Position numbers and translations under genes: made by a program. Shown here piece by piece: positions 30,107 to 49,301 of a stretch of DNA of 64,000 bases (positions are counted from its first letter, which is position 1; each line of letters opens with the position of its first letter). The stretch is taken from contig BBZX01000009.1 in the NCBI GenBank assembly GCA_001305055.1, positions 62,001 to 126,000 on the forward strand, read 5' to 3'. The stretch is from Clostridia bacterium UC5.1-1C12 (GTDB lineage Bacteria > Bacillota_I > Bacilli_A > Erysipelotrichales > Erysipelotrichaceae). Below the pieces are notes generated by a model. It was not told where the DNA came from and did no database searches. It saw nothing but the letters and a program-made list of their open reading frames with translations.

Positions 30107-30155
30107 TGTGAAAATATCGCACAGTGACTTTTGACAAATGAACGGGGTTGAAAAA

Positions 30156-30815
30156 ATGTCAGAAAAAATGTCAGAACAGATTGAGGAGAAAATCTCCAAA
30201 GCACTCGACACCGAAATGACAAGAAGACAGTTCATGAAGATTTCAGGAAAAGGGTTAATGGGTTTAACTGTTTCCGCTTCATTGCTTTCTTTGTTCGGGT
30301 GCACTCAGCAACAGATCGATAACGGTGAAGTTGCTACATGGGCTATGCCGCAGGGACTGCTGGTTGTCAATGCTGCCAAGTGTGTAGGCTGTCAGCGTTG
30401 TGAAATCAACTGTACGCTGGTAAATGATGGTGTGGCTTCTACGTATATTTCTCGTGTTAAGGTTCAGCGCAATATTACATTGAATGGTGAACATGGTCTT
30501 TATGGCAATAAAGACTGGGTTTATTTCCCTGATACTTGCCGTCAGTGCAAGGATCCGGCTTGCGGAAATGCTTGTCCGCAGGGTGCTATTTATGCCAATG
30601 ACAACGGTATCCGTGTTGTAGATCAGGAAAAATGCATTGGCTGCGGCGCATGTGTTCAGGCATGTCCATGGCATATGCCGACCGTGAATCCTGAAACGCA
30701 CAAGTCAAGCAAGTGTATTGCCTGCGGTGCGTGTGTACAAGGCTGTCCTGCCGGTGCGCTGTCAATCATTCCTTGGGATGAGGTAACGGCTGCTGCTCAG
30801 GAAGTACACAAATAG
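30156..30815 (+). CDS. Tat-exported ferredoxin-like lipoprotein with four [4Fe-4S] sites (YdhY/YdhX-like)
   Basis: A 219-residue electron-transfer subunit. A twin-arginine signal TRRQFMKIS (Arg23, Arg24) precedes a hydrophobic stretch ending in LFGC (Cys49), a lipobox-like site. Four four-cysteine clusters follow: C76-x2-C79-x2-C82-x3-C86, C128/131/136/140, C160/163/166/170 and C187/190/193/197. The layout matches DmsB/YdhY-type partners of molybdenum or tungsten enzymes. The start at 30156 fits the ACGGGGTTG site better than an ATG at 30138. It should move electrons to or from the AOR subunit encoded next, on the outer face of the membrane if exported (inference). Confidence 0.85.
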   Translation: MSEKMSEQIEEKISKALDTEMTRRQFMKISGKGLMGLTVSASLLSLFGCTQQQIDNGEVATWAMPQGLLVVNAAKCVGCQRCEINCTLVNDGVASTYISRVKVQRNITLNGEHGLYGNKDWVYFPDTCRQCKDPACGNACPQGAIYANDNGIRVVDQEKCIGCGACVQACPWHMPTVNPETHKSSKCIACGACVQGCPAGALSIIPWDEVTAAAQEVHK

Positions 30816-30832
30816 AAAGGGAGGATTAATTC

Positions 30833-32956
30833 ATGTCTACAAACTATGGATGGGCTGGAAAAATCCTGCGTGTCAACCTGACAACGGGTTCGGTCACTAC
30901 GGAGGATACAGCAAAATATCAAGATTATATCGGTGGTATGGGACTTGCATACAAGATTATGTATGATGAAGTGCCTTTAACTACAAAGGCTTATGATGAA
31001 GCCAATAAAATTATTTTTGGCGTCGGACCGTTAACGGCGTCCGGTGTGCCATGTTCAGGACGTATGAATGTTACGACTTTGTCTGCATGGACTAAGGGGT
31101 ATTCAATTCTTGATGGTCATATGGGCGGTCATATTGCGCATAATTTTAAGTATGCCGGCTATGATGCATTGGTCATTGAAGGCAAGGCTGCCGGCCATGT
31201 CTATATCAAGATCGATGATGATAAAGTAACGATTGAATCAGCTGAACATACATGGGGTATGGGAACATTTGATACCAACAGAATCATGATTGAAGAGAAT
31301 GGCTCTGATTTCGATGTTGTATCCATTGGTCAGGCTGGTGAAAATCTGGTCAATTATTCTTGCATGCTGACTTCTTCCTGCGATTCTGCAGGTGCTGGTA
31401 CAGCCGCTGTATTAGGCAGTAAGAATGTTAAGTCAGTAGTTGTCAGAGGGACCGGCAATGTGAAGATTGCTAATCCTGCTGAATTTAAAGAATTATGCGA
31501 TTACATGCTGCGCGAGCTGATCGGCGGCAACAATAACCACAATGTACCGGCAGTTCCGCAAAGCTGGGCAGAATATTCTGCACCAAGCGGCAATAACCGT
31601 TGGGCTGGTGCGCCTGGCCGTGTTTGGGGATTAGCTGAAGGCGGTCCGATCGATATGGGTGAGCAGCCTTATGATGATATCAATAAGATTGCATACCGCT
31701 GTATGAAGGGTCAGTTTGACTTTGGTGATATCGCTCAGAAATACATGGTTAAGGTTGGCGGCTGTTCTTCATGTCCAGTTCGCTGCTATGCTGAATATGA
31801 AATGGCGCCGTTGGCTGAATATGAACTGCCGACACGTGTATCCAATACATGTATGCCAATCATTTACAACACTACATGGTATCCTGAGGGTGTAAAAGAT
31901 TTCGTCGATGAAGGCGATGCTTCGATCATCATCAACGGTGCCGGTGAGCGTGCACTGGATAACTTCGGTGTTTGGGAAAACTATGGCAACCTGCTTCGTG
32001 AATTCAACTGGTGCTATAAGCACGGTGTATTTGAAAGAGTATTGCCGAAGGAAGAATACGATGCTGTGCCTTGGGATTTGATGAAGGAAGGCAATCCGAA
32101 GTGGATGTGGTGGATCATTGAACAGATCGCTACTAAGAAAGGTGAAATTTCTCACTTAGGTGACGGAACTTACCTGCTTGCGGAAAGATGGAATCTCGGT
32201 CAGGAATTCTGGGATGACAACTACATGCAGACGATTTCTTACAATGGTTATCCTCGTCATCATGGTTCTGAAGATGTATACCAGGTAGGTGTGCTTTACA
32301 GTATCATGTATAACCGTGACTGCATGATCCATCATATGATCAATATCGTTGGTTCCGGCTGTCCTTATGAAGTTTATAAGAAGACATTAGAAGATGAATT
32401 CGGTGAAGGCTGCGTCGATATGCCTAAGAAATATACTCCGATGAACCGTTCAAAAGCGAGACTTGCGAAATGGGCGTTTATCGGCAAGCAATGGCATGAT
32501 TCAGCAACTGTCTGCAACTGGATGTGGCCGATGACGCAATCACCTGCTAAGTCTCGTAATTATAAGGGTGACCATGATTTGGATGCGAAATTCATGAGTG
32601 CAGTTACCGGTGATAAATGGACGCGTGCAGATGTTGATTTAGCGAGTGAGCGTATTTCCAATATGCTGCGTGTTATGACTGCCATTTCATTTAATATTAA
32701 TGAAGGAAGTACGAATCTGCGTGAAGATCATGATACGATCTGTAACTGGGTATTTGATAAAGAGCCTGAATTTAAGGCATTTGAAGAAGGCACGGTTAAA
32801 CTGGACCGCGCTGATATGGAACTTGCAAAGGATATGTTCTATGAGGAAATGGGATGGGATGTCAAGACTGGTATTCCAACCAGAGCAACCCTTGAACGTG
32901 TAGGTCTGGGCTATATGGCTGATGATCTGGCGGCTCGCGGTCTGCTTCCTGCATAG
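30833..32956 (+). CDS. Aldehyde ferredoxin oxidoreductase family enzyme (YdhV-like)
   Basis: A 707-residue AOR-family oxidoreductase carrying a tungsten or molybdenum bis-pyranopterin cofactor and one [4Fe-4S] cluster. The N-terminal domain opens GWAGKILRVNLTTG and includes FGVGPLTASGVPCSGRMNV. The cluster Cys are in GGCSSCPVRCY (near residue 311), with the last near GSGCPYEVY. The length matches E. coli YdhV (about 700) rather than classic AOR (about 600). No signal peptide is present. It would need to ride with the Tat-signal partner to be outside, as in other Tat complexes (inference). The substrate is unknown. Confidence 0.88.
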   Translation: MSTNYGWAGKILRVNLTTGSVTTEDTAKYQDYIGGMGLAYKIMYDEVPLTTKAYDEANKIIFGVGPLTASGVPCSGRMNVTTLSAWTKGYSILDGHMGGHIAHNFKYAGYDALVIEGKAAGHVYIKIDDDKVTIESAEHTWGMGTFDTNRIMIEENGSDFDVVSIGQAGENLVNYSCMLTSSCDSAGAGTAAVLGSKNVKSVVVRGTGNVKIANPAEFKELCDYMLRELIGGNNNHNVPAVPQSWAEYSAPSGNNRWAGAPGRVWGLAEGGPIDMGEQPYDDINKIAYRCMKGQFDFGDIAQKYMVKVGGCSSCPVRCYAEYEMAPLAEYELPTRVSNTCMPIIYNTTWYPEGVKDFVDEGDASIIINGAGERALDNFGVWENYGNLLREFNWCYKHGVFERVLPKEEYDAVPWDLMKEGNPKWMWWIIEQIATKKGEISHLGDGTYLLAERWNLGQEFWDDNYMQTISYNGYPRHHGSEDVYQVGVLYSIMYNRDCMIHHMINIVGSGCPYEVYKKTLEDEFGEGCVDMPKKYTPMNRSKARLAKWAFIGKQWHDSATVCNWMWPMTQSPAKSRNYKGDHDLDAKFMSAVTGDKWTRADVDLASERISNMLRVMTAISFNINEGSTNLREDHDTICNWVFDKEPEFKAFEEGTVKLDRADMELAKDMFYEEMGWDVKTGIPTRATLERVGLGYMADDLAARGLLPA

Positions 32957-41146: not shown

Positions 41147-42277
41147 TTATTTGGAAACAGTGAAGATATCTTCAATATCATCGCTTGTTACAATGATATA
41201 ATCAAGATACTTAAATTCTTTTTTGCCTTCAGGGATTTCATCATCGCTGTTATAAACCCAAACTACACTTAATGAATAACCTAAATCACGAATTTTCTGT
41301 ATCATTTCATTAGCTTCTTGATAATCCATCGTATAAAGCAATGTCGAACAAATATCAGCAACTCCCGAATTATCTGTGACAACACTTAAAGCGCGTGAAT
41401 GACGGGCAGGGAAAAGCGTGTCAGGATCAATGATGTGATGCATCAATTCACCGTTAGATAAATAATAGCGCTGATAGTCACCGGAAGTAACTAATGACTG
41501 TTTGCCGGAAAGCGGCAGTACACCTAAAGTACCGTTGATGCCATTAAGATCCGGAACTTGAATACCGGCATTCCATGCGCTGCCGTCCGGTTTGCTGCCA
41601 ATCACCCGCACATTGCCGCCGGCGTTGAGGATGCCGCTGGTCAAGCCTCTCGCTTCAAGCTCTTGGGCGACCTTTTCAGCTGTGAAGCCCTTGGCCACTG
41701 AACCGACATCAAGGCTCGCGCACGCTTGATTCAAATAGACTGTACTGTCCGCTTCATTGATTTCAACGTTATTCCAGCCGACACAAGCCTTGGCCTGTTG
41801 TAATTCTTCCATTGATGGAACCGGCGCATCCTGTCCCTCAGTATTCAGGCTAATGCCTGCCTCACGGTATTCATGCCAAATTTCAAGGACAGGGCCCATC
41901 GTAATATCAAACTTGTTATTGGATAATTCAGAGAACTGTTTTGACAATTCAAGCATTTCAAGAATATCCGCGTCAACCTTTACCGGCTGAATGCCTGCGT
42001 TGTCATTGATTGTTTTAATGTTATTTACACCTTCATAATCATTATACTTATCAAACAGGGCATTGTAGCGTTTAAACTCAGAACGCACCAGATCAAAATA
42101 TTCATTAAACTGTGTCTCATCATCCGCATAAGCAATTAACGAGATTACCGTATCAAATCCGGCATCCAATGTCTGACTGTTATAACGGCTCTGCTCCTTG
42201 ACAGGCGCTTGTTTAGCCGTACAGCCGATAAGCAGCAGGCTCATCAGCAGGATTAAACTTTTTTCATTTTTTATCAC
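41147..42277 (-). CDS. apbE: FAD:protein FMN transferase ApbE (lipoprotein)
   Basis: A 376-residue secreted lipoprotein (lipobox LIGC, Cys19) that moves FMN from FAD onto Thr of SGAT-type motifs outside the cytoplasm. Family motifs are ASLDVGSVAKGFTAEKV, GILNAGGNVRVIG, SLVTSGDYQRYY and HHIIDPDT, plus the late NSGVADICSTLL Mg-site loop. It is divergent from the Rnf operon, whose RnfD, RnfG and RnfE products carry the target motifs, so those are its likely clients. Confidence 0.95.
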   Translation of the reverse strand: MIKNEKSLILLMSLLLIGCTAKQAPVKEQSRYNSQTLDAGFDTVISLIAYADDETQFNEYFDLVRSEFKRYNALFDKYNDYEGVNNIKTINDNAGIQPVKVDADILEMLELSKQFSELSNNKFDITMGPVLEIWHEYREAGISLNTEGQDAPVPSMEELQQAKACVGWNNVEINEADSTVYLNQACASLDVGSVAKGFTAEKVAQELEARGLTSGILNAGGNVRVIGSKPDGSAWNAGIQVPDLNGINGTLGVLPLSGKQSLVTSGDYQRYYLSNGELMHHIIDPDTLFPARHSRALSVVTDNSGVADICSTLLYTMDYQEANEMIQKIRDLGYSLSVVWVYNSDDEIPEGKKEFKYLDYIIVTSDDIEDIFTVSK

Positions 42278-42599: not shown

Positions 42600-43898
42600 A
42601 TGTCTTTGTTTAAGGGGCCAATGCGTGAGCATATCAATGGTCACAAAGATTTAACAGAAGCATCAGAACTGTTTGTTGTCGATCCAGGTAAAACAGTGAG
42701 TATTCCTTTGTTTGCCGGGGCCGCACAAAACCCGAAAGTGCTGGTTGCCGAGGGGGATAAAGTAGCTGTCGGAACAAAGATCGCTGTCTTTGATGAACGC
42801 AATGTCGTTCCTATTTTTTCAAGTGTCAGCGGCACAGTAAAGGGCATCGAGAAAAAGATGCATCAGAGTTTAAAGCAAATTGATCACATCGTAATTGAGA
42901 ATGATGGTTTGTATACGGAATGTCAGCCGTTTGGTACGATAGACTGGCAGAGCGCATCAAAAGAAGAGCTTATCGACTTTATGATGAATGCTGGTATTAT
43001 CGGCTGCGGCGGCGCAGGTTTCCCAGCTTATATCAAATATAAATTTGCAAAGGATGTTCAGATTTTGATTATTAATGCGGTAGAATGTGAACCGTTCATC
43101 ACTTCTGATTATTACCTGACAGAGCATGAATTTGATTTAATGCTGACTGGTATTTTAGCGATGAAAAAGATGGCTGAAGCAAAGGAAGTTGCGATTGCTA
43201 TCAAGAAATCACATCCGGAACTGATTTCTTTTGTTCAGTCTAAATTAAACGGTGTTGAAGGTGTTGCGGTACGTGAAGTTCCTGATGTTTATCCAATGGG
43301 ATGGGAACGTACTTTAGTGCGCGAGATTACCGGTAAGGATTATGACCGTCTGCCGGGAGAGGTAGGCGCAGTTGTCAATAATGCGACGACGGCTTATATG
43401 TTTGGTAAAGCCATGGTTAAGGGCGAACCCATCGTATCCCGTGTGATGACGATTTCCGGTGACGGCGTTAAGAAGCCGACGAATGCATTAGTTCGCATGG
43501 GTACTTCCATGCATGAAGTTGTTGAACAGGCAGCCGGCGGTTATGCCGGTGAAGATATTCTGCTGTCTGTGGGCGGCCCGATGATGGGTGCTACCATGAC
43601 AACGGATGCGGTTTCGGTTGAACGTCAGAACAACGCATTAACTGTACAGCTTAATAAGCCTGCTCAGGAAATTGCCTGTCTGCGCTGCGGCCGCTGTTCG
43701 GATCATTGTCCGTCAGGCTTGCAGCCGGTGCGGATTTCTCAGGCAATGAAATCGAAAGACATGGAAAGAATCGGCCTGCTGCAGATCACATCATGCATTG
43801 AATGCGGTATGTGTACGTATGTATGTCCGTCTAAGATTGCTGTTACAGAAACAATGCGCAGAGCTAAACGTGCCTATATGGCATTTAGCAAGAAGTAG
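42600..43898 (+). CDS. rnfC: Rnf complex subunit RnfC
   Basis: A 432-residue peripheral subunit that binds NADH and FMN and carries two [4Fe-4S] clusters. It shows the nucleotide loop IIGCGGAGFPAYIKYKF, NAVECEPFITSDYY, PDVYPMGWERTLVREI, then CLRCGRCSDHCP and CIECGMCTYVCP. Length is normal and the frame is intact. It is first in the rnfCDGEAB order. Confidence 0.95.
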   Translation: MSLFKGPMREHINGHKDLTEASELFVVDPGKTVSIPLFAGAAQNPKVLVAEGDKVAVGTKIAVFDERNVVPIFSSVSGTVKGIEKKMHQSLKQIDHIVIENDGLYTECQPFGTIDWQSASKEELIDFMMNAGIIGCGGAGFPAYIKYKFAKDVQILIINAVECEPFITSDYYLTEHEFDLMLTGILAMKKMAEAKEVAIAIKKSHPELISFVQSKLNGVEGVAVREVPDVYPMGWERTLVREITGKDYDRLPGEVGAVVNNATTAYMFGKAMVKGEPIVSRVMTISGDGVKKPTNALVRMGTSMHEVVEQAAGGYAGEDILLSVGGPMMGATMTTDAVSVERQNNALTVQLNKPAQEIACLRCGRCSDHCPSGLQPVRISQAMKSKDMERIGLLQITSCIECGMCTYVCPSKIAVTETMRRAKRAYMAFSKK

Positions 43899-43910: not shown

Positions 43911-45770
43911 ATGAAATTTACTTTTAATCCGGCGCCTAACTATAAATGCAAGCTTTCAACTCAGCAAATCATGCGTGAACTGGCTATCGGTCTGCTGGTT
44001 GTCTATGCGTTCTCACTGTTCTATTACGGAACTCAATATGGCGGCGCATATGTGACGCAGGCGCTGCTGATCATGCTTGTATCTTTAGTTTCGGCATGTG
44101 CCGTTGAAGTGCTTTGGGCTTTAGCTACAAAGCAGAATGTATTGAATTTTATTAAAACATCTTTCCCATTCATCACAGCAATGATTTTTGCTTTGATGCT
44201 GCCAATCAGTACATCATTATATGCAGTTGCTATTTCAAGTGCGATGGCAATTTTATTTGGTAAACTGGTATTCGGCGGTTTTGGTCAGAATATTTTTAAT
44301 CCGGCAGCGGTTGGACGCGCAATTATTTTTGCTGCTTTCACAGCTTCTACTACGGACATCGTTACTTCTGTGACACCGACTACGCTGATGGCAGGTCAGT
44401 ATCACTGGTTAGTGACAGATGCTTCATTAGCAGGTCAGCTGCTGGATTCCGTAGGCGGTTTAGGCAATCTGTTTATCGGTATGTATCCAGGTGCTCTTGG
44501 TGAAACAAGCGCATTGCTGATTGGTCTTGTCGGTATCGTTTTGGCATATCGCAAGGTTATCGATTGGCGTGTACCAACCGTTTATATCGGAACGGTGTTT
44601 GTATTGACAGCCTGCATCGCATTATTTACCGGTGCTGGTATCTGGTATCCGTTCTATCATATTTTAAGCGGCGGTTTATTCTTCGGTGCTGTATTTATGG
44701 CAACTGATCCGGTAACTTCACCGACTTCAGCGGCCGGACGCTGTATCTTTGCGTTAGGCTGCGGTATCCTGACAGTGCTGATCCGTGTAAAAGCGAATCT
44801 TCCAGAAGGCGTTTTATATTCAATTCTGATTATGAACTCATTGTCACCGATGATCGAACGTGCATTAGACGGCGAACAGCGCAAGACGATGAAAAAAGCA
44901 ATTAAAATGTTTGCCTCTGCGGCAGTTGTCGGTCTGGCAGCTTGTCTGCTGGCAATCAGCGTTGTTGAACCGGCAAGTGCATCAGCGGATACAAATGTTC
45001 CAAGTGCACCTGAAACGGCAGTTAAAATCAACGGTATTTCTGATCCGTATGTCGCAACCTTAATGGCTGAAGTAACAGAGACTCAGACCAATGGCGGTGA
45101 CACTGTTTATACCGTTCAGGCTGATGGCTTTGCCATTATGAATGGCGGTGAAAAGGCCAATATCTTCAAGGTTACCTTGAATAGCAGCAATGAGGTTGTA
45201 AAGGTTGAAGCTGTTGAAGTGAATGATACACCGACTATTGGTGATAAGATTAATGATGATGCGTTCTTCGCACAATTTGAAGGTGTGAATGCGGCAGATT
45301 TTACAGTGGATGCAGTATCTGGTGCGACTTATTCATCAAAGTCAGCTGTGCGCGCGGTTTTAGCGGCTATGGAAGCTCATGGCATGGATGTCGGCTTCAG
45401 CGCTAAACAGGAAGTGAGCATCGCTGATGACGAATTAGTGAAAAAGATTGAAGCAAGTGTGAAAGATAGCAAGGATAATGGCGACGGTACAACGACTTAT
45501 ACCGTAGATGCTCAGGGCTTTGCGGCTATCAACGGCGGCAGTGATCTCAATGAGTTCACGATTGTGGTTGATGCAAATAAAGCGGTTGTCAGTGTTGAAT
45601 GCAGTAAGTTTGTTGATACGGCATCCATCGGCGATCAGGCAACTACGGCTGATTATTTAGGTAAGTTTGCAGGAGCAACAGCTGATACGATGGTCAGCGA
45701 TGTCGTATCCGGAGCTACTTATACTTCAAAATCAGTAATCAAGGCTGTACTTACAGCGCTTGCTGAATAG
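43911..45770 (+). CDS. rnfD: RnfD fused to two C-terminal FMN-binding domains
   Basis: A 619-residue protein, about twice the usual RnfD. Residues 1-350 form the membrane RnfD domain, with NIFNPAAVGRA and a covalent-flavin region TDIVTSVTP where Thr155 stands in a TSVT rather than the usual SGAT-like form. A helix (~333-352) leads to a Ser/Ala-Pro linker and two tandem FMN_bind domains, residues ~375-490 and ~500-619. Each ends in a full flavinylation motif: VSGATYSSKS (Thr473) and VSGATYTSKS (Thr603). Both domains should lie outside the membrane. ApbE is encoded next door. The tandem fusion is unusual. Confidence 0.92.
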   Translation: MKFTFNPAPNYKCKLSTQQIMRELAIGLLVVYAFSLFYYGTQYGGAYVTQALLIMLVSLVSACAVEVLWALATKQNVLNFIKTSFPFITAMIFALMLPISTSLYAVAISSAMAILFGKLVFGGFGQNIFNPAAVGRAIIFAAFTASTTDIVTSVTPTTLMAGQYHWLVTDASLAGQLLDSVGGLGNLFIGMYPGALGETSALLIGLVGIVLAYRKVIDWRVPTVYIGTVFVLTACIALFTGAGIWYPFYHILSGGLFFGAVFMATDPVTSPTSAAGRCIFALGCGILTVLIRVKANLPEGVLYSILIMNSLSPMIERALDGEQRKTMKKAIKMFASAAVVGLAACLLAISVVEPASASADTNVPSAPETAVKINGISDPYVATLMAEVTETQTNGGDTVYTVQADGFAIMNGGEKANIFKVTLNSSNEVVKVEAVEVNDTPTIGDKINDDAFFAQFEGVNAADFTVDAVSGATYSSKSAVRAVLAAMEAHGMDVGFSAKQEVSIADDELVKKIEASVKDSKDNGDGTTTYTVDAQGFAAINGGSDLNEFTIVVDANKAVVSVECSKFVDTASIGDQATTADYLGKFAGATADTMVSDVVSGATYTSKSVIKAVLTALAE

Positions 45771-45781
45771 GAGGGAATCAT

Positions 45782-46282
45782 ATGAAAAAAATTCTTCATT
45801 TAACCGTATTCCTAGCATTGATTTCAGCAATCGCCGGCGGTGCTTTGGCAGCTGTTAACGCGGTTACAGCACCGATTATTGAGGAAAGTGCGATTGCCAG
45901 TGAGAAGGCAAATCTTGAATTGATTTATCCGGGTGCTGATTTCAAAGCAGTTGAATTAAGCGGTGATACTGGCAGTATTATTGGTGCTTATGAAGCAGCC
46001 GGCAAAGGCATGATTTATAAAGTATCCGTTACCGGCTTCAAGGACAGCTTGATCTATCTTGTCGCAATCGGTGAAAATGGTAACTTTGATGGTTACAAAG
46101 TATTACAAAATAACGATACTAGCGGTTTTGGCAGCCGTGTTTCTGATGCAGAATTCTATGATCAGTTTGTCGGCAAGCCAATTGATACTAAGATCGATAC
46201 ATTGTCTGGTGCTACGGTTTCTTCTACGGCAACAGTTAATGGTCTTAAAGACGTTGTAGAATACTACAACGCTACGAAATAG
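45782..46282 (+). CDS. rnfG: Rnf complex subunit RnfG
   Basis: A 166-residue protein with one N-terminal membrane helix and an extracytoplasmic FMN-binding domain. The flavin Thr145 is in DTLSGATVSSTA. The segment KVLQNNDTSGFGSRV before it is typical of RnfG. It is shorter than many RnfG (about 200), but all family parts are visible. Confidence 0.93.
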   Translation: MKKILHLTVFLALISAIAGGALAAVNAVTAPIIEESAIASEKANLELIYPGADFKAVELSGDTGSIIGAYEAAGKGMIYKVSVTGFKDSLIYLVAIGENGNFDGYKVLQNNDTSGFGSRVSDAEFYDQFVGKPIDTKIDTLSGATVSSTATVNGLKDVVEYYNATK

Positions 46283-46293
46283 GGGGCAAAACA

Positions 46294-47394
46294 ATGGAAC
46301 GTTTAGAGAATTTTAAAGCGGGTTTCATTCGTGAAAACCCAATCTTCGGTTTATATCTCGGCTGTTGTTCGGCACTGGCTATTTCTACTACCCTGAACAA
46401 TGCCATTGGTATGGGGGTTGCTGTTATTTTGGTAACCATTATGTCAAATGTAATTATTTCCGCGATCCGCAAGATCACTCCGGATGAAATCCGTATTCCG
46501 GTTTATATTGTCGTTATCGCAACCTTAGTTAAAATTATTCAAATGTTGGTACAGGCTTATGCGACAGATCTGTATACAGCATTAGGCATCTTCCTGCCGC
46601 TGATCGTTGTGAATTGCATCATCCTGGGCCGTGCTGAAGCGTTTGCCAGCAAAAATGGTCTGCTTGATTCAGCTTTAGATGGTCTTGGCATGGGACTTGG
46701 TTATACTTTTGGTTTATTGGCAATATCCACGATTCGTCAGCTGCTGGCTACGGGTATGCTGTCATTCGCAAATCCATTCAATCCGACACAAATTTTCTTC
46801 CAGGCAGAATTCTTCCCGGCAGAATATACGATCTCTTTATTTAAAGATCCAATCGGCGCATTTATTACATTTGCATGTCTGGCAGCAGCTTTAAATGCAT
46901 ACAAAGCCAGCAAGAATAAAAAGAATTGGGGTATTGGCTTAGGCGTTGTTGTTTTAGCGTTAGTTGCGGTAATCGCAGTACGCGGTGAATTCAATGTCAA
47001 TACGGCTGTGGAAGCTGAAACACCGGTTGAACCAGATAATTCTGAACCGGTTAATGGTGAAACAGCTTCTGGTATCCTGTCAGAAAGCAGTGAAAATGGT
47101 GAGACGACCTATATCGTATCTGCACCTGGCTTTACTGCTGCGACTGGCGGCGGTGATGAAAATACCTTCAAGATCGTTGTAGATGAAGCTTCGGGCTCAA
47201 TTAAGAGCGTTGAAATTGATACTTTCGCAGATACTCCGGGTATCGGTGATGCGATCAACAATGTAGAATTCTTTAATCAGTTTGAAGGGTTAGCTTCTTC
47301 TGATTTCGAAGTTGATGCACAAAGCGGCGCAACATTCTCCAGTGATTCAGTAACCAAAGCGGTTAAAACAGTGCTTGAATCACTAGGAAAGTAG
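46294..47394 (+). CDS. rnfE: RnfE fused to an extra membrane helix and an FMN-binding domain
   Basis: A 366-residue protein. Residues 1-205 are an ordinary RnfE with six helices, including LYLGCCSALA and VVNCIILGRAEAFASKNG, whose Cys bind the iron centre shared with RnfA. A further helix at ~213-229 is followed by a Pro/Glu linker and an FMN_bind domain (~258-366) ending in DAQSGATFSSDS (Thr347). The extension should be outside the cell membrane. RnfE normally ends near residue 200-230, so this is a fusion. Confidence 0.92.
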   Translation: MERLENFKAGFIRENPIFGLYLGCCSALAISTTLNNAIGMGVAVILVTIMSNVIISAIRKITPDEIRIPVYIVVIATLVKIIQMLVQAYATDLYTALGIFLPLIVVNCIILGRAEAFASKNGLLDSALDGLGMGLGYTFGLLAISTIRQLLATGMLSFANPFNPTQIFFQAEFFPAEYTISLFKDPIGAFITFACLAAALNAYKASKNKKNWGIGLGVVVLALVAVIAVRGEFNVNTAVEAETPVEPDNSEPVNGETASGILSESSENGETTYIVSAPGFTAATGGGDENTFKIVVDEASGSIKSVEIDTFADTPGIGDAINNVEFFNQFEGLASSDFEVDAQSGATFSSDSVTKAVKTVLESLGK

Positions 47395-47407: not shown

Positions 47408-47982
47408 ATGGGAGAATTATTTACATTATTTATTGGTTCAGTATTGATCAATAACATTATTTTAAACAAATTCCTGGGTATCTGTCCTTTCATGGGTGTT
47501 TCCAAGAAAACTAGCAGTGCGCTTGGAATGGGGGCAGCTGTAACCTTCGTTATCTTTGCATCTTCGATCTTTACTTATGCGATTTATCATTTAGTTCTGG
47601 TGAAATTCAGTATTGAATATATGGATTTGATCACTTTCATTCTGGTAATTGCCGCTTTCGTGCAGTTAGTAGAATGGTGATCAAGAAATATTCACCGACA
47701 CTGTATAAATCATTAGGTATTTATCTGCCATTGATTACTACTAACTGTGCAGTATTAGGTGTAGCTTTAGAGAATATTTCAAATGGCTTTACCTTCTCTG
47801 AGATGATTGTTTATTCGTTAGGTGTTCCTATTGGTTTCACTTTGGTTATTTTCATCTTCTCAACAATTCGTGAACGTCTTGAAAGTGCAAAGACACCGAC
47901 ACCGTTTGTCGGTAATCCGATTGCCTTGATCGTTGCTGGTTTAATGGCGCTGGCATTCAGCGGATTAGCGGGTCTGGTTTAA
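47408..47982 (+). CDS. rnfA: Rnf complex subunit RnfA (frameshifted)
   Basis: A 192-residue membrane subunit with six helices, partner of RnfE. It contains NNIILNKFLGICPFMGVSKK and TTNCAVLGVALEN, whose Cys contribute to the iron centre. One A is missing near 47673 (GTAGAATGG), splitting the frame. With it FVQLVEMVIKKYSPTLYKSLG is continuous. Confidence 0.93.
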
Positions 47983-47983
47983 G

Positions 47984-48148
47984 ATGTTAAGTGCGGTTTT
48001 GCTTTTTGCGGCTTTAGGCGCAATCTACGCGTTGCTCTATTATTTGAACCATAAGACACCGGTTCCGAAGGGCTGTGAAGATTTAAAAGTCAGCTGCAAG
48101 GGCTGTAAGGATGTTTCCTGCGGGAATAATCCAGTTCACGAAAGTTAA
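47984..48148 (+). CDS. Small Cys-rich membrane protein in the Rnf operon (NqrM-like candidate)
   Basis: A 54-residue protein: one membrane helix (residues ~3-20, SAVLLFAALGAIYALLYYL), then a short soluble tail with four Cys in GCEDLKVSCKGCKDVSCG. The start overlaps the end of rnfA. Size, topology and Cys pattern recall NqrM, which supplies iron to the NqrD/NqrE centre equivalent to that of RnfA/RnfE. No close sequence match is claimed. A FeoB-associated Cys-rich type of protein is the other option. Confidence 0.6.
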   Translation: MLSAVLLFAALGAIYALLYYLNHKTPVPKGCEDLKVSCKGCKDVSCGNNPVHES

Positions 48149-48163
48149 GAAAGGAAAAACATT

Positions 48164-48472
48164 ATGTTACAAGCTGTATTAACAATGCTGATTCTTGGCG
48201 CACTCCTTGGTCTTGGGCTGGGTGTTGCTGATAAATTTTTAAAGGTTGAAGTTGATGCTCGTCAGGAAACGGTAACTTCTATGCTGCCTGGTTATAATTG
48301 CGGCGGCTGCGGTTTTGCCGGCTGTTCAGGTCTGGCAGAAGCATTGGTGAATGGGGAAGTGAAGACAGTCAGTCTTTGTAAGCCAAGCAAACCTGATGCT
48401 AAGCAGAAAATTGTTGATTATTTAAAAGAAACACCAGGACCTGATGGTTCAACTCTGGATGTAGCTTTATAA
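48164..48472 (+). CDS. rnfB: Minimal RnfB (membrane helix plus one Fe-S site, no ferredoxin domains)
   Basis: A 102-residue RnfB. The N-terminal helix (LQAVLTMLILGALLGLGLGV) and the four-Cys site YNCGGCGFAGCSGLAE...LCKP (Cys46, 49, 54, 72) are typical. The usual 150-200 further residues with ferredoxin-type clusters are absent. This is not an obvious frame break: after the stop only ~12 bases precede a clear terminator, leaving no room for the missing domains. Confidence 0.88.
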   Translation: MLQAVLTMLILGALLGLGLGVADKFLKVEVDARQETVTSMLPGYNCGGCGFAGCSGLAEALVNGEVKTVSLCKPSKPDAKQKIVDYLKETPGPDGSTLDVAL

Positions 48473-48594: not shown

Positions 48595-49301
48595 ATGATT
48601 GAATGCCATGATTTAACAAAGGAATACGGTTCTTTTAAAGCCGTTGATAATATTGATCTTGAAGCGGCAAGCGGTGAGATTACTGTCTTGCTGGGGCCTA
48701 ATGGGGCAGGTAAATCGACAACGATTAAAAGTATTGTCGGCTTGCTGCAGTTTGAGGGGAAAATTAAAATCTGCGGTTATGCCAATAAAACGGAAAATGC
48801 CAAGCGCAGCTTTGGTTATATACCGGAAGCTCCGGTGCTTTATGATATGCTGAGTGTGGATGAGCATGTGGAATTTATTGCGGCAGCCTATCAGATTAAG
48901 GACTATCGGCCGCTGGCGGAGAAATACTATGAGCTTTTCGATTTGAGCGAGAAGAAGAAAACGATTGTCAAGAATCTGTCAAAAGGAATGAAGCAGAAGT
49001 ATCAATGCTGCTGGCTTTGGTACTGTCACCGAAGGTGCTGCTGGTTGATGAACCGATGGTCGGACTTGATCCGGCAAGCATTGAAGAGGTATTAAAGCTA
49101 TTGGTTGAATTGAAAAATAATGGTGTTGCAGTGCTGATCAGTACGCATATCATTGATGTAATCGATGATATCTGGGACAAAGCTTATATTATGAATAAAG
49201 GAAAAATTGTGCGGACAGTACGCCGTGATGATCTGCATGAGGAGTCTTTGAAAGAGATTTTCTTTGCCTGTACGGGTGAACAGCATGAGCATCATCTGTA
49301 A
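48595..49301 (+). CDS. ABC exporter ATPase (frameshifted)
   Basis: About 236 residues: Walker A LLGPNGAGKSTT, signature NLSKGMKQK, Walker B VLLVDEPMVGLDP and switch His in ISTHIIDVIDD. One A is missing near 48996 (CAGAAGTATC for CAGAAAGTATC), so the frame jumps just after the signature motif. With the permease encoded next it forms an ABC-2-type exporter; the cargo is unknown. Confidence 0.88.

Follow-up and report, generated by a model that had tools for sequence, protein, structure and literature searches.

Additional FMN_bind domains on RnfD and RnfE of an Rnf complex related to that of Dielma fastidiosa, and a possible role in electron export

What is the function of flavin-binding domains fused to the membrane subunits of an Rnf complex? 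We have studied the rnf locus in a stretch of 64,000 nucleotides (the window) from Clostridia bacterium UC5.1-1C12, a close relative of Dielma fastidiosa. In this locus RnfD and RnfE each continue beyond a canonical core into a tail of FMN_bind domains, predicted to carry covalently bound flavin mononucleotide (FMN). To our knowledge, the route by which electrons reach the many secreted flavin reductases of Gram-positive gut anaerobes is not settled, and a membrane pump carrying exported flavins would be a direct candidate for supplying them. Positions given below are those of the window, on the forward strand unless stated otherwise.

Results

FMN_bind domains and flavin sites

The rnfD gene (43911..45770) encodes a protein of 619 amino acids, for which the open reading frame (ORF), Pfam and a structural model indicate a canonical core followed by a helix and two FMN_bind domains. 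Pfam assigns 268.8 bits to NQR2_RnfD_RnfE and 62.0 bits to FMN_bind, the latter over two stretches and against a cut-off of 22 bits. Domain 1 comprises residues 386-489 (45066..45377) and domain 2 residues 515-618 (45453..45764); both are found by Pfam, motif and model, and domain 1 also matches PDB 8p2b by sequence. By ORF, Pfam and NCBIfam, the rnfE gene (46294..47394; 366 amino acids) encodes a canonical core, a helix and one FMN_bind domain, scoring 199.4 bits for Rnf-Nqr and 44.1 bits for FMN_bind. The RnfE domain comprises residues 260-363 (47071..47382), and is indicated by Pfam, motif, model and Foldseek matches to RnfG (7zc6_G) and 8p2b at weak E-values of 0.008 and 0.047. Between the two genes lies rnfG (45782..46282; 166 amino acids; Pfam, NCBIfam and motif), with a single FMN_bind domain of 43.8 bits.

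The motif SGAT begins at residues 470 and 600 of RnfD, 344 of RnfE and 142 of RnfG, so that the predicted sites of flavin attachment are T473, T603, T347 and T145, respectively. RnfG thus keeps the motif expected of it. When all six frames of the window were scanned with a custom FMN-domain profile, no FMN domain beyond these four was found. A first-pass annotation, made from the letters alone, had placed two tandem domains on RnfD, one domain behind an added helix on RnfE, and a further site at Thr145 of RnfG. ORF, Pfam and motif agree with it on RnfD; for RnfE the profile score, motif and hydropathy bear it out, while the model is weak. The profile search that it proposed as a check places both fusions well above the cut-off.

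In other homologues an [STAV]GA[ST]-like or TGST motif is kept by most of the tails listed, and the motif is present in most of the RnfG proteins listed. SQAT, TSAT, GSAT or SEAT replace SGAT in some RnfD tails (P0012, P0014, P0018, P0046 and others), with the threonine kept.

The membrane part of RnfD has a further predicted covalent site at T155 (codon 44373..44375, in the sequence TSVTP). In a HMMER alignment this residue corresponds to Thr153 of Clostridium tetanomorphum RnfD, given as the FMN attachment site by Vitt et al. (2022; PMC9588780), and it is invariant among 64 aligned sequences, that of the window included. The threonine for the membrane FMN is therefore present in the window protein, as a residue. 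We had considered whether the tails offset the loss of the membrane flavin, since SGAT is absent there, and the alignment and invariance of T155 rule this out. Together with T473, T603, T347 and T145, it would bring the number of covalent flavins to five. With two FMN_bind domains RnfD falls within the definition of a multi-flavinylated protein (more than one such domain), the location of these domains outside the membrane being deduced from helix and charge.

RnfC, RnfD, RnfG, RnfE and RnfA homologues are encoded together in this locus. Among the NCBIfam Rnf models, RnfC and RnfE score above their cut-offs; RnfD reaches 203.5 bits against 207.05, RnfG 53.4 bits against 102, and RnfA, which is split in the window, 109.7 and 127.8 bits.

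Extra helices and location of the tails

In the AlphaFold2 (AF2) model of RnfD (mean predicted local distance difference test, pLDDT, 84.6) a helix at residues 323-351 (44877..44963) separates core from tail. The first-pass annotation made no mention of it. A strong hydropathy peak lies at residues 334-352, with five Lys or Arg residues before it and one after. The corresponding helix of RnfE, residues 213-230 (46930..46983), comes from a low-confidence model (pLDDT 69; predicted template modelling score, pTM, 0.48), so the RnfE tail rests mainly on Pfam; here too hydropathy gives a strong peak, at residues 211-229, with four Lys or Arg before it and none after.

In the C. tetanomorphum complex (PMC9588780) the C-terminus of RnfD is cytoplasmic and RnfG is an extracellular shuttle. 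An added helix would therefore place the FMN_bind domains of RnfD outside, beside RnfG. For the RnfE core, six helices in inverted topology are described in the accessible part of a review (PMC12174285), which leaves the side of the membrane unstated; from this topology and the charges we take the canonical core to end in the cytoplasm.

Of 96 complete RnfD proteins from the loci surveyed below, 71 could be anchored, with no canonical RnfD among them. A tail helix was found in all 71, and Lys and Arg were more frequent before the helix than after it in 53. The predicted location of the tails outside the membrane is supported, rather than shown, by these features. Taken with the sequence matches, the good model of RnfD and the weak one of RnfE, they also favour the earlier prediction of four outward-facing FMN_bind domains in addition to the membrane flavin of RnfD.

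Distribution of the tails

The layout is shared by the nearest genome compared, that of the D. fastidiosa type strain, where RnfD is 98% identical in protein and 96% in DNA sequence. An artefact confined to the window is thereby ruled out. For this pair the ratio of nonsynonymous to synonymous substitution rates (dN/dS) is 0.157 for domain 1 and 0.042 for domain 2 of RnfD, 0.058 for the RnfE domain and 0.042 for the RnfD core. Between the window and the type strain, the tails are under purifying selection.

We surveyed RnfE tails genome by genome within the order. RnfE matches were found in 114 of 148 genomes, four of them full-length: the type strain and three members of one genus, Traorella. 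The rnf stretches of 100 of the 114 genomes were fetched, which with the type strain gives 101 loci; 94 of these, from 49 genera, were complete and scored, and seven were dropped because of contig ends or an unscored subunit. RnfD carries no tail domain in 30 of the 94, one in 38, two in 23 and three in 3, where at least two of the 30 scored as tailless (L181 and L200) hold a weak domain missed by the custom profile and the counts are unadjusted. RnfG has one domain in 70 loci, two in 18 and three in 6. RnfE tails occur in only three complete loci, of Dielma and Traorella, and likewise in five (L014-L018, from the same two genera) of the best 80 of 167 named RnfE loci.

The first-pass annotation would have been refuted by a survey showing the fusions to be common and known in related species, and on this point the result is divided. 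RnfD tails are common in the order (64 of the 94 loci) and RnfE tails are rare; neither fusion turned up in the papers searched. Supplementary files lay outside that search, and the tables of Meheust et al. may hold such proteins unremarked. Both architectures are already in databases under Pfam labels. In the protein database at least one [STDAE]GA[ST] motif lies past residue 330 in 89 of the best 120 RnfD homologues, and 22 of the best 120 RnfE homologues carry an FMN_bind label. Beyond the order, two genomes from another family of the class (G169 and G215) align with RnfD as far as residues 492 and 488.

Relationships between the FMN_bind domains

Of 189 FMN domains that satisfied a filter on score and length, 95 were selected by locus for a tree, with 120 columns kept. 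This tree divides, with support of 100/99, into a group of the first domains of RnfG (35 rows) and a second set (60 rows) made up of the tails of RnfD and RnfE together with the later domains of RnfG; the alignment has few columns and drew a long-branch warning. One row labelled RnfG (L018, 142 amino acids at a contig end) probably represents a truncated RnfD tail. On this grouping we reject the RnfG core domain as the source of the RnfE tail. Nor does the tree support one common source for every RnfE tail with no copying afterwards: the RnfE rows require five changes on it, a weak result with so short an alignment.

The nearest relative of the RnfE tail is the RnfD tail of the same locus in two Traorella loci. 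In T. massiliensis, domain 1 of RnfD and the RnfE tail are identical at 330 of 339 bases (97%), and in L015 domain 2 of RnfD and the RnfE tail share 80% DNA identity. Domain 2 of RnfD and domain 2 of RnfG are identical at 351 of 369 bases in L083. Judged from these sequences, the tail in parts of the group, the Traorella loci among them, behaves as a module that has been copied or converted between subunits, with the core RnfG domain staying put. Such copying suggests that the tails are functionally interchangeable. Recent copying in Dielma is unsupported; the tails share 59-66% DNA identity with each other, similar to their 62-65% with RnfG, and the RnfE tail is closer to the tails of Traorella L015 (58-60% amino acid identity) than to the RnfD tails of its own locus (43-48%). 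By the same measure, any copying in the lineage of the window is old.

A short RnfB and a small four-cysteine protein

The rnfB gene (48164..48472) encodes only 102 amino acids, a membrane helix and an FeS domain (PF04060, 47.1 bits; no Fer4), and scores 59.8 bits for TIGR01944 against a cut-off of 68.7. RnfB has the same length in D. fastidiosa, and in both the C-terminal 4Fe-4S domain that accepts ferredoxin is absent. According to a review (PMC12174285) the missing part is the acceptor for cytoplasmic ferredoxins. The complex is therefore classed here as a homologous Rnf variant, for which ferredoxin:NAD (nicotinamide adenine dinucleotide) oxidoreductase activity should not be assumed. The short RnfB thus calls into question the automatic annotation of such complexes as ferredoxin:NAD oxidoreductases.

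Among the named loci RnfB was found in 77, with a length of 89-140 amino acids, and no CxxCxxCxxxC motif occurred either within it or in the following 1.5 kb of the same strand. In the genome set the motif is present in RnfB of only four of the 100 loci with RnfB (G039, G040, G077 and G061). These four RnfB proteins have 251-263 amino acids (two are cut by the end of the fetched stretch), and their RnfD proteins are tailless, at 304-309 amino acids; every other complete RnfD has at least 354. Across the tailed type of Rnf (the window, L014-L093 and L107-L206) RnfB lacks the domain that accepts ferredoxin.

Between rnfA and rnfB lies a small ORF (47984..48148; 54 amino acids), read from the sequence as one hydrophobic helix with four cysteines, which is conserved in relatives. 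A strict pattern detects it in 86 of the 100 RnfB-bearing loci; the four canonical ones all lack a match. Four of these proteins were compared with Pfam up to an E-value of 10, giving a single chance-level match of 12 bits and otherwise none. The small protein is possibly an assembly factor, by analogy with the maturation factor NqrM.

Comparison with known systems

The window complex shares homologous RnfA, RnfC, RnfD, RnfE and RnfG, and the start of RnfB, with the Rnf complexes of C. tetanomorphum, Acetobacterium woodii and Azotobacter vinelandii (PDB 7zc6, 9eri, 8ahx). The RnfD model best matches 9eri_D, 8ahx_D and 7zc6_D, and the flavin threonine of RnfD is kept. In the solved complexes, however, RnfD (310-366 amino acids) and RnfE (196-238) are tailless, and RnfB has 174-333 amino acids, where the window protein is shorter and lacks the ferredoxin domain.

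Meheust et al. (2021; PMC8238504) propose, for multi-flavin RnfG, a second path to outside acceptors. Such complexes likewise have more than one extracytosolic FMN_bind domain, but there the extra domains are described on RnfG. In the window RnfG has a single domain, and it is RnfD and RnfE that bear the additional ones, behind an extra helix in either case. The NQR/RNF-like systems described in PMC8238504 and PMC10979944 resemble the present complex in tying an RnfD/NqrB homologue to an outside FMN_bind protein, with outward electron flow. Those systems consist of two subunits, and their RnfD-like protein bears an NAD-binding domain in the cytosol, whereas the window has the Rnf subunit set with its additions outside. 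The soluble proteins CbFMN4 and SaFMN3 (PDB 8p2b, 8p2a; PMC12052999) have several ApbE-flavinylated FMN_bind domains per protein; it is 8p2b that matches RnfD domain 1 by sequence and, weakly, the RnfE tail by fold. The summary of them in that paper mentions no fusion to a membrane redox pump. The fresher parts of our findings are, in our view, the tail on RnfE, the copying from one subunit to another in Traorella, and the shortness of RnfB.

Discussion

In the reading that we tentatively favour, this member of the Rnf family carries flavin modules tethered to the membrane, and its tails provide an outlet to secreted flavin reductases. ApbE would load FMN onto T473, T603, T347 and T145, giving four mobile flavins outside in addition to that on T155 of RnfD. 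RnfG shuttles between two partners in the membrane, RnfA/E and RnfD, and it is these that bear the tails, so that electrons arriving at the outer face could leave the RnfE-RnfG-RnfD route through the tails. From there the electrons could pass to secreted lipoprotein flavin reductases, which are numerous in Dielma, by way of the FMN_bind domains of these enzymes. Rnf would then serve extracellular flavin respiration as a hub in the membrane, besides pumping ions. Since the tails are separable from the core by the extra helix, the outlet idea can be tested by truncation.

The genomic evidence for such partners is as follows. D. fastidiosa has 31 FMN_bind matches, the highest of the 148 genomes, and 22 FAD_binding_2 matches of at least 100 bits, the most among nine chosen genomes. 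Three of its ORFs were checked, and have FAD_binding_2 and FMN_bind domains by Pfam and lipoprotein-like starts. Taking other FMN_bind matches as the total minus the Rnf domains found by the custom profile, with a floor of zero, the number of Rnf flavins correlates with them with rho 0.42 over the 94 loci and 0.63 over 49 genus means, both without phylogenetic correction. In two metagenome-assembled genomes a gene for a secreted-looking flavoprotein with FMN_bind and FAD-binding domains adjoins apbE-rnf (L055:590-2449 and L059:612-2495, the latter tested with Pfam).

A number of observations weigh against an outlet to such reductases. Flavinylation, outside location and electron flow are predictions from sequence and models. 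The correlation is carried by the extra RnfG domains (rho 0.64 by genus); for RnfD and RnfE tails together rho falls to 0.32 (p 0.025) over genera, and over single genomes to 0.11 (p 0.30), again uncorrected for phylogeny. T. massiliensis (G109) has a full four-domain Rnf and five FMN_bind matches in total, four of which were scored in Rnf, with no FAD_binding_2 match of at least 100 bits; G085, of the same genus, has an RnfE tail, and likewise five FMN_bind matches and no FAD_binding_2 match at that threshold. Neither L055 nor L059, which have the adjoining reductase, has an FMN tail on RnfD or RnfE, and in the window the custom profile found no FMN domain outside rnfD, rnfG and rnfE, and thus no partner near rnf. 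Delivery of electrons to external acceptors, as the first-pass annotation had suggested, is therefore plausible in the light of the Dielma reductases and the correlation between genera, but is not shown, given the weak correlation of the tails and the case of T. massiliensis.

It is possible, if doubtful, that the tails work inside the Rnf cycle with no external acceptor, relaying, buffering or storing electrons among the RnfA/E cluster, RnfG and FMN-RnfD. This could ease the shuttling of RnfG over a gap of about 35 Å (PMC12174285 and PMC9588780), and the subunits that bear the tails are precisely its two partners in the membrane. T. massiliensis, with almost no FMN_bind match beyond its Rnf, fits such a role, as does the intermixing in the tree of RnfD and RnfE tails with extra RnfG domains, near-identical within some loci, which is expected if only a local flavin pool matters. 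Yet 23 of the 94 complete loci were scored with a single RnfG domain alone (at least two of them hold a weak RnfD tail missed by the profile), and genera with more Rnf flavins in total tend also to have more FMN_bind matches elsewhere. If the tails are nevertheless outlets, T. massiliensis requires a different partner, such as metal ions, soluble flavins, quinone-like shuttles or an exported oxidoreductase acting as acceptor or donor. The window offers one candidate, an aldehyde ferredoxin oxidoreductase-like enzyme with an Fe-S partner that has, by eye, a twin-arginine-like and lipobox-like start, but no acceptor of this kind is tied to rnf here, and we regard a partner other than FMN_bind reductases as distinctly unlikely. 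That the fused domains are assembly artefacts or decaying, functionless passengers is hardly credible. Frame breaks in rnfA and in a downstream transporter gene, and loss of the motif glycine or serine in some homologous tails, might be read in that way, but rnfD and rnfE are uninterrupted, the layout recurs in the type strain and in Traorella, dN/dS is well below 1 and most of the tails listed keep the motif.

A wider change is conceivable, although we think it unlikely. Erysipelotrichales would then carry a separate class of Rnf, recognized by a stripped RnfB that lacks the ferredoxin domain, by the small four-cysteine membrane protein and by exchangeable flavin tails that lie outside, on RnfD and RnfG and in some cases on RnfE. 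Such a class would have ceased to be a ferredoxin:NAD pump and become a hub for electron export, both cytosolic arms emptying outward through a shared pool of tethered flavins.

Other genes of the locus

The gene order is apbE-rnfCDGEAB, with apbE divergent. The apbE gene (41147..42277, reverse strand; Pfam ApbE, 229.5 bits) encodes an FMN transferase with a lipoprotein-like N-terminus, and rnfC (42600..43898; TIGR01945, 330.9 bits, above cut-off) the NADH/FMN subunit with two 4Fe-4S motifs. Of the 80 named loci, 57 have an ApbE gene and 70 have rnfC. The rnfA gene (47408..47982; ORFs and NCBIfam) lies in two overlapping frames in the window, and is a single frame of 191 amino acids in the type strain. 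A terminator-like sequence, seen by eye, directly follows rnfB. The ATP-binding cassette (ABC) transporter ATPase gene downstream (48595-49301) is, like rnfA, split over two frames, and both are single frames in the type strain; the splits could be sequence errors in the window.

The aldehyde ferredoxin oxidoreductase-like gene (AFOR_N, AFOR_C) and that of the neighbouring Fe-S protein occupy 30138-32956, about 10 kb from rnf. Just upstream of apbE lies a gene for an ABC ATPase, and the genes that precede it in the type strain resemble, by eye, molybdate transport genes and cofactor genes.

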